A DNA stretch of 64,000 nucleotides from Wenyingzhuangia aestuarii (GTDB lineage: Bacteria; Bacteroidota; Bacteroidia; Flavobacteriales; Flavobacteriaceae): NCBI RefSeq assembly GCF_011927765.1, contig NZ_JAATJG010000002.1:62001-126000 (forward strand), given 5' to 3'. The notes beneath the pieces are model-generated. The model was given only the letters and a program-made list of their open reading frames with translations, had not been told where the DNA came from and did no database searches. How positions within the stretch are numbered: the first letter of the stretch is position 1; each line of letters starts with the position of its first letter. Below, in pieces: positions 8,139-11,249 of this stretch. A program made the position numbers and the translations under genes.

Positions 8139-9422
8139 CTACTTTAGTTGGATGGATAGTTTTTTGTTCCCTTTTTGATATGAATAAACCGTGTATTTAC
8201 ACAGGTATTTAGCCATGTATTTTGCAATAAAAACTCCTATTAATAATGGAAAGAATAATGCAAATCCGTTGTCTACAATATTACAAGTTAAAAATAAAGC
8301 CGTTAATGGTGCGTGTATGGCCGCACTTAACATAGCTGCTGCTCCAATTAAAGCAAAATTTAAGACAATTAATTGAGTGTTAAAGTAATGATTGCAAAAC
8401 ATAGCTACTAAAATACCTAAGATTGCTCCGGTGACAATACTTGGAGCAAAAACACCACCATCTCCACCTGCACCTAAAGTAAGAGAAGCTACAATGGGTT
8501 TTAAAACCACAATAAAAAAGAGTGATATAATAAAACCGAATGTAATTGTTTTTAAATTACTAAGTGCTATAAATTCAGGAATGGAATGATAACTATCTCC
8601 ATACAGAGCAGGAAAAATAAATATAGATAATCCTACTAATAAAGCTCCCGTGTTTACACGGATAAAGTTATTTGTAATTTTAGCAAACTTTGTTTTGATA
8701 AAAATAACACTTTTGGTAAAAAACACGGCCGTAACTCCAGCAAGTAAACTTAAGAGGATCATGTAAGGGATTGCTTGGTAATTCCATTGGAATACTTCTA
8801 AATTAAATAATTTGTTAGCATCAAAAAAATAGATAAAAGTTTGAGCAATGGCTACAGAAATAGCACAACTTAAAAATAGGGTTTGAGTTACTTTTCTAGA
8901 AATAACTTCTATAGCAAATAAAAGCCCAGCAATGGGACTCCCAAATAAAGTAGTTACGCCTGCTGCTACACCCGCACAAATTAATTCGGTCTTATAAGTT
9001 TTGGCAACTTTGTCTTTTTTATAGATGGAATTTCCAATGGCAGCAGTAGCTACTACGGTAGAAACTTCCACACCTGTAGAACCTCCAAAAACTACGGTTA
9101 AAAATCCATTTAGGTAGTGTGATGGAATTTTGTAAAAAGGAAGTTCTTCTTTTCTGTTTTCAAGTGTATTAAAAACCTCGGTAATTCCTTTGTTGTTTTT
9201 GCCTTTAAATAAAAATTTACGCGTAAAGTAGATCAACGTAATTCCTACAGAAGGTAGAAAAATATAAAAAACAGGGAAGTTGTTTACTTTATGAAATATT
9301 AATTCTTGAAAAAAAGCAGTGCTGTTTTTTAATGTACTTCCTGCTAATGTGGCCAAAACACCTATTATGATTGAGTTTAGAATTAGGTTGTAATATCCTT
9401 TTGCAATGATTTCTTTTCTCAT
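8139..9422 (-). CDS. ClC-family chloride channel/transporter, divergent selectivity motifs
   Basis: A 427-residue membrane protein with the ClC fold. LFGSPIAGLLFAIEV and GGDGGVFAPSIVTGAILG correspond to conserved helix-start motifs. The gating glutamate motif appears as GVEVS in place of GREGP, keeping Glu but not its neighbours. The usual GSGIP selectivity motif appears as NKGIT, so the central serine would be Lys and the proline Thr if my alignment is right. The protein lacks the cytosolic CBS domains. It probably moves an anion, but selectivity and the channel versus proton-exchange mode are uncertain. It stands alone, downstream of palindromic repeats. Confidence 0.85.
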   Translation of the reverse strand: MRKEIIAKGYYNLILNSIIIGVLATLAGSTLKNSTAFFQELIFHKVNNFPVFYIFLPSVGITLIYFTRKFLFKGKNNKGITEVFNTLENRKEELPFYKIPSHYLNGFLTVVFGGSTGVEVSTVVATAAIGNSIYKKDKVAKTYKTELICAGVAAGVTTLFGSPIAGLLFAIEVISRKVTQTLFLSCAISVAIAQTFIYFFDANKLFNLEVFQWNYQAIPYMILLSLLAGVTAVFFTKSVIFIKTKFAKITNNFIRVNTGALLVGLSIFIFPALYGDSYHSIPEFIALSNLKTITFGFIISLFFIVVLKPIVASLTLGAGGDGGVFAPSIVTGAILGILVAMFCNHYFNTQLIVLNFALIGAAAMLSAAIHAPLTALFLTCNIVDNGFALFFPLLIGVFIAKYMAKYLCKYTVYSYQKGNKKLSIQLK

Positions 9423-9550
9423 AAGAAAATTCAGTTTTAAGTCTGTAAAGATAAAGGATTAAAAAAGTGTGAAGCTCTTATTTAAATAGAGTTTGTCAGT
9501 GTTTTTAGTTGAATTTTTTTAATGGAGAAGTGTAGTTTTTTTCATGAACC

Positions 9551-9664
9551 ACATTTCGACAGGCTCCTTTAGATTAGCAAAGTGTATTTTAATTCATACA
9601 GTCAGTCTGAGCTTGTCGAAGACTGGTTGTTGTCTGTGTTGTCCATCCGAGCTTGTCGAGGACT
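9551..9664. repeat. REP-like palindromic repeats at the 3' end of the GIY-YIG gene
   Basis: Three copies of the TTCGACAAGCTC motif: forward at 9551-9566 (TTCGACAGGCTC variant), reverse at 9599-9626 and reverse at 9641-9664. The two reverse copies form the 3' end of the GIY-YIG reading frame and encode its low-complexity tail. Confidence 0.8.
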
Positions 9665-9940
9665 ATTTTGAGAGAATAGGATTAATTGATCATAATCTTC
9701 ATCTATCAAAGCTTGCTTTTTACGTCTGCTCCATCCCTTAAGTTGTTTTTCTTTAGCGATTGCTAATTCTGGATTGGTGAATTCTTGCACCCAAACTAAT
9801 TTGATCGGTAGTCTTTTAGAGGTGTAGCTATTATAACATTTTGCAGATTGATGTTCTTCAAGTCGTCTTGAAATGTTATTGGTAATTCCAGTGTAAAAGC
9901 TGTCATCAGAACATTTTAGGATGTATACATAATAAAACAT
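9602..9940 (-). CDS. GIY-YIG endonuclease-domain protein (UPF0213/YhbQ-like)
   Basis: A 112-residue protein. Residues 1-80 form a compact GIY-YIG nuclease domain: YVYILKCSDDSFYTGIT carries the two signature strands, NISRRLEEH supplies the catalytic Arg, and AIAKEKQLKGWSRRKK the metal-binding Glu. Residues after about 90 (SPRQARMDNTDNNQSSTSSD) are encoded by two copies of the flanking palindromic repeat, so the native C-terminus has probably been replaced by repeat DNA. The gene is flanked on both sides by TTCGACAAGCTC palindromes. The nuclease may act on those repeats, much as REP-associated transposases act on REPs; that link is inference. Confidence 0.88.
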   Translation of the reverse strand: MFYYVYILKCSDDSFYTGITNNISRRLEEHQSAKCYNSYTSKRLPIKLVWVQEFTNPELAIAKEKQLKGWSRRKKQALIDEDYDQLILFSQNSPRQARMDNTDNNQSSTSSD

Positions 9941-9965
9941 TCAATTAAAGTAATAAATAAAATCT

Positions 9966-10325
9966 ACACTTCGACAAGCTCAGTGTGACCTTCTTTTATT
10001 AAGAAAGTTGTTTTTATTCTTACAGTCAGTCTGAGCTTGTCGAAGACTGGTTTTGTGTTCGTCTGAGTTTGCTTGTACTGAGTTGAAGTATAGAATCCTT
10101 TTTAGGTTAATTAAGTTGGTGGAGGAAACTCACACTTCGACAAGCTCAGTGTGACCTTCTTTTATTAAGAAAGTTGTTTTTATTCTTACAGTCAGTCTGA
10201 GCTTGTCGAAGACTAGTTTTGTATTCGTCTGAGTTTGCTTGTACTGAGTTAGTCGAAGTGTTGAAGACTAATTTTTATAATAAATTTTAACAATTGAATT
10301 CTACATTTCGACAAGCTTAGTATGA
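9966..10325. repeat. Array of TTCGACAAGCTCAG palindromes with a 166-bp tandem duplication
   Basis: CTTCGACAAGCTCA at 9969-9982 is the perfect reverse complement of 10032-10045, giving a long stem-loop. The whole block 9966-10084 recurs at 10132-10250 (offset 166 nt) with only two mismatches that I could count. A degenerate half copy follows each block (10061-10088 and 10227-10259), and a last forward copy lies at 10303-10325. The array fills the 394-nt gap between the GIY-YIG start and the aguB stop; no gene is visible in it. Confidence 0.9.
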
Positions 10326-10334
10326 CAATGTGAA

Positions 10335-11219
10335 TTAATCAATATATCTTTTAGTAATATCACCATAAGCATCAATTCTTCGATCTCTAAAAAACGGCCA
10401 AATTCTTCTTACGTCTTCAGTCTTTTGCTTGTCTACAGTAATTACTTTATTCATTTCATCTTTTTGATTTCCTTCCCACAAAATTTCTCCTTGTGGCCCT
10501 GTTACAAAACTAGTTCCCCAAAATTCTATACCGTTGGTAACACCTGTCCAATCTTTTTCAAAACCAACACGGTTTACCGAAATTACGGGCAATCCATTGG
10601 CTACAGAATGACCTCTTTGAGAAATCATCCAAGCATCTCTTTGACGAGCTTTTTCTTCTTCACTATCCGTACTTTCGTAACCAATTGCAGTTGGGTAAAT
10701 TAATACTTCTGCACCGGCCATAGCCATTAGTCTTGCTGCTTCCGGATACCATTGATCCCAACAAATTAAAACTCCTAACTTACCTACAGAAGTCTGTATA
10801 GGTTGGAAACCTAAATCTCCGGGAGTAAAATAGAATTTTTCGTAATAAGCAGGATCATCGGGAATGTGCATTTTTCTGTAACGACCTGCTTCTGTTCCAT
10901 CTTTTTCAAAAACAACAGCTGTATTGTGGTAAATTCCTGGTGCTCTTTTTTCAAATAAAGAAGTTACTAGTACAATGTTTAACTCTTTGGCAATTGCAGA
11001 AAATTGATTGTAAGAAGGACCCGGAAAAGGTTCCGCCCATTCAAACATATCTACCTCTTCTGCCTGACAAAAATAGATTCCCGTATGTAGTTCTTGTAAA
11101 ACAACTAATTCGGCACCATTGTTTACACATTGTTGAATTCCAGCAATGGTTTTATCTATGTTTTCTTGTTTGTTTGTTGTACAAGTTTGTTGTACAATTC
11201 CAACGTTTAATTTACTCAT
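10335..11219 (-). CDS. aguB: N-carbamoylputrescine amidase (nitrilase superfamily)
   Basis: A 294-residue carbon-nitrogen hydrolase that cleaves N-carbamoylputrescine to putrescine, CO2 and ammonia. The Glu-Lys-Cys triad is visible: Glu in VVLQELHTGIYF (about residue 43), Lys in YRKMHIPDDP (about 120), Cys in GVLICWDQWYPEAARL (about 157). It lies 30 nt downstream of agmatine deiminase in a leftward aguA-aguB operon, which identifies the substrate far better than the fold alone. Arginine decarboxylase is not in the window. Confidence 0.94.
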   Translation of the reverse strand: MSKLNVGIVQQTCTTNKQENIDKTIAGIQQCVNNGAELVVLQELHTGIYFCQAEEVDMFEWAEPFPGPSYNQFSAIAKELNIVLVTSLFEKRAPGIYHNTAVVFEKDGTEAGRYRKMHIPDDPAYYEKFYFTPGDLGFQPIQTSVGKLGVLICWDQWYPEAARLMAMAGAEVLIYPTAIGYESTDSEEEKARQRDAWMISQRGHSVANGLPVISVNRVGFEKDWTGVTNGIEFWGTSFVTGPQGEILWEGNQKDEMNKVITVDKQKTEDVRRIWPFFRDRRIDAYGDITKRYID

Positions 11220-11249
11220 TATAATAAGTTATGTACTAAAAATATAATT

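Follow-up and report, generated by a model that had tools for sequence, protein, structure and literature searches.

A small GIY-YIG nuclease gene and its probable cognate hairpin repeats in Wenyingzhuangia aestuarii and other Bacteroidota

Within a 64,000-nt stretch of Wenyingzhuangia aestuarii DNA (contig NZ_JAATJG010000002.1, positions 62,001 to 126,000; referred to as the window), a small GIY-YIG nuclease gene lies among copies of a short repeat, which raises the question of whether enzyme and repeat belong together and, if so, in what kind of system. The initial annotation had likened the arrangement to REP sequences with their RAYT transposase, though with a different nuclease fold, and had proposed a GIY-YIG-driven repeat system in Bacteroidota.

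The nuclease gene and its hairpins

By allowing at most one mismatch, eight matches of TTCGACAAGCTC were found in the window, all at 9555-10318 and on both sides of the gene, as compared with 0.25 expected in 64 kb, and none of 100 shuffles of the window reached eight; likewise, the tag-extended form TCGACARGCTCAGNNTGAC (≤2 mismatches) had seven copies versus 0.01 expected. This bears out the earlier count of at least eight flanking copies. The description of TTCGACAAGCTC as a palindrome had to be corrected, as it comprises mostly the fixed loop of a hairpin plus one stem base, with the 4-6-bp stem lying mostly outside the 12-mer. The hairpin has the form NNCT-TCGACARGCTC-AGNN-TGAC, and comparison of 163 copies from 36 loci found the fixed loop TCGACARGCTC, an inner CT/AG stem, two variable outer pairs and then a conserved TGAC. 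Stem positions 3 and 4 were paired in 81% and 75% of these copies, versus 25% and 29% with shuffled partners, respectively; the outer stem positions covary, staying complementary across copies. Perfect stems are mostly of 4-5 bp with a loop of 11 or 12 nt, and a hairpin scan of the loci recovered 263 hairpins in the real and 4 in the reversed sequence.

Read on the opposite strand, the repeat begins with TGTCA followed by the hairpin, which is the tag of the CGTC REP superfamily. TGTCA is the commonest tag both in class A, the class of the window, and in the class B described below (76/112 and 79/136 copies, respectively). Family-wide, an unpaired xGTC tag stands at one hairpin end in 102 of the 112 class A copies, 83 of which have TGTC, and among the window copies the tag opens with A, G or T. 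Class A neighbours at most 150 bp apart were oriented as 20 HH, 19 HT and 11 TT. An Rfam search gave sub-threshold matches alone and no known RNA family.

Features of the cassette in the window (positions counted from the first letter of the window)
Feature	Position	Strand	Evidence or remark
Whole cassette, nuclease gene and all hairpins	about 9545..10332	.	blastn versus congener G228
Stand-alone GIY-YIG nuclease gene	9602..9940	-	ORF of 112 codons, PF01541 match
Hairpin core copy 1, TTCGACAGGCTC, degenerate, tag lost	9555..9566	+	TTCGACAAGCTC match
Hairpin copy 2, AGTCT-TCGACAAGCTC-AGACT-GAC	9601..9625	-	encodes ORF-terminal SSTSSD and stop codon
Hairpin copy 3, AGTCC-TCGACAAGCTC-GGAT-GGAC	9641..9665	-	inside ORF, residues about 94-98
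Hairpin copy 4, ACACT-TCGACAAGCTC-AGTGT-GAC	9966..9989	+	motif match, fold
Hairpin copy 5, inverted partner of copy 4	10025..10049	-	tags of copies 4 and 5 face each other
Hairpin copy 6, tandem duplicate of copy 4	10132..10155	+	start-to-start spacing 166 bp
Hairpin copy 7, tandem duplicate of copy 5	10191..10215	-	repeat search
Hairpin copy 8, ACATT-TCGACAAGCTT-AGTAT-GAC	10303..10326	+	motif match
Direct duplication, 142-nt copies 9943-10084 and 10109-10250, 91% identical	9943..10250	.	repeat search

The window ORF is intact and its GIY-YIG domain stands alone, matching PF01541 across residues 3-75 in a profile search (E 8.6e-18), in agreement with the 112-residue gene annotated previously; an NCBIfam search of the protein assigned it to no family. 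Residues Y6, Y16, R26, H30 and E64 were invariant in alignments that included Neisseria and rhizobial relatives, and the predicted catalytic residues are kept. An AlphaFold2 model (mean pLDDT 82) was confident over residues 1-92, except for a loop near 31-40, and low after about residue 90, and the nearest solved folds were the UPF0213 proteins 1zg2 and 1ywl, followed by the Slx1 GIY-YIG nuclease. The catalytic fold comprises residues 1-92, and the remainder is a repeat-encoded tail: two hairpin copies (cores 9609-9620 and 9649-9660) encode part of residues 94-112, as had been noticed at the outset, and the ORF stop codon is the TGA within the TGAC tag of the last copy. Similar tails (SSTSSD, STSSA, STGSD) recur among relatives, and the C-terminal tail is best explained by translation that runs on into the neighbouring repeat. 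A functional domain at residues 93-112 was considered and ruled out, the segment being unconserved, repeat-encoded and of low model confidence.

Longer frames were encountered elsewhere. In an uncultured Croceitalea (L046, ORF from about 3001), the GIY-YIG protein seems to be lengthened by in-frame repeats to a 286-residue frame with LRQAQTDS-like units, much like the palindromic elements that are reported to lie in frame in Rickettsia genes, and GIY-YIG matches in four genomes (G131, G402, G085 and G283) fall in open frames of 417-999 residues, possibly fusions.

The direct duplication lies upstream of the nuclease gene and contains hairpin copies 4-7; these four hairpins arose via tandem duplication with a 166-bp period. 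On folding, single window hairpins were weakly stable, and the inverted pair of copies 4 and 5 formed one 15-bp stem (z -6.7). Near the cassette ends there is also an inverted 32-nt match, 81% complementary.

In the congener G228, the whole 0.8-kb cassette is missing between the same two flanking genes: by blastn against locus L193, window positions 8140-9544 and 10333-11232 align to G228 blocks only about 50 bp apart, the edge obtained in this way being approximate, with weak intergenic similarity running slightly inside it. No class A hairpin was found at the empty site of this one congener, and no relative of the window protein was found in G228 at E 1e-3; its sole PF01541 match is in a 600-residue frame, the size of UvrC. 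This comparison, which covers one congener and in which gain and loss are indistinguishable, suggests that the cassette is present or absent as one discrete unit from genome to genome.

Repeat class and nuclease clade

Three GIY-YIG relatives of the window kind, the window gene included, are carried by the W. aestuarii genome. The window gene is of class A and the other two, located elsewhere, are of class B; their proteins are 49-53% identical to that of the window, and they sit among a different hairpin with the loop TCGACTNCGCTC, which has 78 copies genome-wide. This second and larger repeat family of the genome (G000) occurs, for example, at C14:59838-75876 and C1:427035-427262. Class A is rare in the genome, with about a dozen copies in two clusters, one in the window and the other between exbB-like and exbD-like genes of contig C9; further near-matches are few. 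A fresh transposition as the source of the C9 cluster is weakened by one repeat copy that the congener also has at this place.

To compare repeat classes with nuclease clades, 122 family genes were taken in order of decreasing similarity to the window protein, and repeats were counted in each gene plus 1 kb on each side. Placing classes A, B and C on the nuclease tree required 4 changes versus a shuffled mean of 52.0, and none of 200 shuffles was as low; the tree was built on residues 1-96, including part of the class-specific segment, and has modest internal support because the protein is short. In a table of classes defined by tail motif, 16 A, 47 B and 40 C genes were concordant with their repeats, two were mixed and two without repeats, and no gene lay mainly in another class's repeats. 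As the tail-motif classes were set after inspection of the relatives' tail table, the tree provides the more independent comparison. Host ancestry is controlled for most strongly by the 18 genomes that hold two nuclease classes, in all of which (18/18) each gene lies among repeats of its own class. At the level of sequence, nuclease clades co-segregate with repeat classes, and the likeness to a REP/RAYT pair, albeit with another nuclease fold, that the initial annotation proposed is now well supported by these tree and two-class genome comparisons.

A third class, GTATCGAGAA, with apparently longer hairpins, surrounds GIY-YIG genes in L031, L035, L039, L105, L122 and other loci, and the C-terminus of its GIY-YIG proteins reads LPNLAKKKF.

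Distribution in and beyond Bacteroidota

Among 299 family genomes, a relative of the nuclease was found in 202, the exact motif in 96 and both in 87 (odds ratio 7.4, p 5e-10, kinship ignored). Because exact TTCGACAAGCTCAG counts alone understate the repeat family, the phylum scan relied on a tag-based pattern; in it, 36 of 296 genomes had the motif, 186 a relative and 31 both (odds ratio 4.2, p 0.001, kinship ignored). Whether motif-bearing genomes always carry the nuclease had been named as a check; 9 of the 96 motif-bearing family genomes, with 1-8 copies each, and five motif-bearing phylum genomes had no relative at E 1e-3. One of these five, G420, has 12 exact class A hairpin cores, and represents either a counterexample or a loss. 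A repeat abundant where the nuclease is lacking, named earlier as an observation that would speak against the pairing, was thus seen weakly, in the nine family genomes and in G420. Conversely, GIY-YIG relatives without repeats are common, as in Bacillus yazA and Patescibacteria. Relatives are distributed sporadically across the family, and dispersed repeat copies reach 36-39 per genome in other genomes.

Outside Bacteroidota, relatives were found in plasmid records of rhizobia, Azospirillum, Shinella, Aeromonas and Photobacterium, and two gonococcal relatives came from chromosome-sized records filed as plasmids. Scanning 22 loci, negatives included (B. subtilis yazA, Methylobacterium and Sphingomonas), for [CT]GTC followed by an AT-starting hairpin gave 39 hairpins no more than 600 bp from the genes, a further 23 at greater distance within the 10-kb loci (most of these 23 continue Neisseria and Photobacterium arrays), and 0 in the reversed controls; the one B. 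subtilis yazA neighbourhood had no tagged repeats. The repeats at these loci agree with how CGTC REPs have been described (PMC3733652). In Azospirillum, the CGTC REP CGTCATCCCCGCGAAGGCGGGGATCCA stands on both sides of the gene, and the Sinorhizobium relative is also among CGTC REPs. The repeats of the Neisseria relative, CGTCATTCCCGC..., are of the dRS3/CGTC-1 type, dRS3 being the same as CGTC-1 (PMC3733652), and the N. gonorrhoeae gene lies inside them. With Proteobacteria relatives sitting among canonical CGTC REPs, a repeat system special to Bacteroidota is not supported.

Two of these loci have particular layouts. In Azospirillum lipoferum AZO_p3 (L178:4878-5387), a GIY-YIG gene and four CGTC REPs lie between sufB and sufC of a suf cluster, and in Photobacterium sp. 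GJ3 (L186:5448-7759), 15 CGTC/TGTC REPs of alternating orientation adjoin a GIY-YIG gene.

Competing explanations and known systems

Taken by its sequence features, the cassette is most probably a GIY-YIG nuclease with its cognate hairpin repeats, a Bacteroidota version of the pairing of small UPF0213-like GIY-YIG nucleases with CGTC REPs, which in Neisseria is that of Ssn with its repeats. The protein would recognise the tagged hairpin in single-stranded DNA, whether during replication, during repair or in taken-up DNA, and, by analogy with the reported Neisseria work, would most probably cut this hairpin at one set position close to the tag. Following such cuts, local copy number would change chiefly through tandem duplication and recombination; spread of the repeats would depend on host repair or recombination. 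Ssn reportedly affects DNA uptake or recombination in Neisseria, and by the same analogy a role of this kind would be reasonable here.

Active mobilisation of the repeats by the nuclease, which in a RAYT/REP-like manner would nick at the tag and re-insert them, could account for the REP-like layout of tag, hairpin and inverted pairs, for the many dispersed copies in some genomes, and for CGTC REPs having been described as without a dedicated transposase. We nevertheless consider it rather unlikely. GIY-YIG enzymes hydrolyse DNA without a covalent protein-DNA intermediate, so none would be available for re-joining, and RAYT-style transposition by the window nuclease is therefore improbable; moreover, the tandem duplication at the locus and the congener copy at the place of the second cluster point to local amplification, and HH pairs do not clearly predominate. 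Less probable still is a homing-endonuclease-like selfish gene, the nuclease of which cuts the empty allele, with the repeats marking ends or past target sites. The presence or absence of the cassette at one site in congeners, the sporadic family distribution and the inverted match near the cassette ends would suit such an element, but intact motif copies stand on both sides, where a site split by insertion would not keep them, dozens of copies are dispersed in other genomes, there is no intron or intein, and with a single congener gain and loss look alike.

That the repeats are passive intergenic hairpins, namely terminators or mRNA-stabilising elements among which the nuclease lies by chance, appears highly improbable. 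Their intergenic position by gene ends and the strong, terminator-like folding of inverted pairs are as this explanation predicts; however, it is contradicted by the almost complete agreement between nuclease and repeat classes, which holds within single genomes as well. The repeats also concentrate around the nuclease gene, and conservation lies in the loop and tag, both unpaired, rather than in a GC stem with a T tract. A cognate nuclease and repeat pair remains the preferred reading. A wider generalization is tentative and would be somewhat doubtful at present: small GIY-YIG nucleases might be the missing dedicated enzymes of the whole CGTC/TGTC REP superfamily in all its phyla, with a readable code from clade and C-terminal segment to loop class, and might drive its amplification by a non-transposase route.

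Among known systems, UPF0213/YazA proteins (1zg2, 1ywl) are closest to the window protein in solved fold, but they lie in housekeeping neighbourhoods, that of B. subtilis yazA being free of tagged repeats. GTAG REPs go with RAYT tyrosine transposases (Y1/HUH), and share with the cassette the tagged hairpins, the inverted pairs and the small DNA-processing enzyme gene that they flank, whereas the window enzyme belongs to the GIY-YIG family (PF01541) rather than to Y1/HUH and the tag is TGTC rather than GTAG. A closer likeness is found in Ssn, a Neisseria GIY-YIG enzyme reportedly named in a 2025 Nature Communications paper and said to cut single strands site-specifically. Ssn nucleases reportedly occur in Neisseria and others, and their pairing with repeats is said to have been published for Neisseria in 2025; our Neisseria relative (L182) presumably encodes Ssn itself. 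Both are small UPF0213-like GIY-YIG proteins with a gene among its own repeats and with catalytic residues in common, although the window protein is only about 32% identical and loop, stem and class-specific C-terminus differ.

The window-type repeats resemble CGTC REPs in that an unpaired CGTC/TGTC tag stands at one end and leads into an A and then the hairpin. In their 2013 description, CGTC REPs have no transposase of their own and no enzyme is named for them; a TGTC tag variant and an occurrence in Bacteroidetes are both recorded there (Di Nocera et al. 2013, PMC3733652). In a 2025 REP survey (PMC12306157), the words "nuclease" and "transposase" are both absent from the text. The GIY-YIG link offers a concrete candidate enzyme for CGTC REPs, testable in many harmless genera. 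The stems of 4-5 bp and loops of 11-12 nt found here differ from the published 8-9 bp and 4-5 nt (PMC3733652), and the repeats cluster around the nuclease, whereas CGTC REPs are mostly dispersed pairs. What the present data would add to the Ssn/CGTC-REP kind is the short-stem, long-loop Bacteroidota hairpin together with three co-segregating classes, which, standing side by side in the same genomes, constitute a natural experiment on which residues read which loop, a reading that would be useful for site-specific single-strand DNA cutters.
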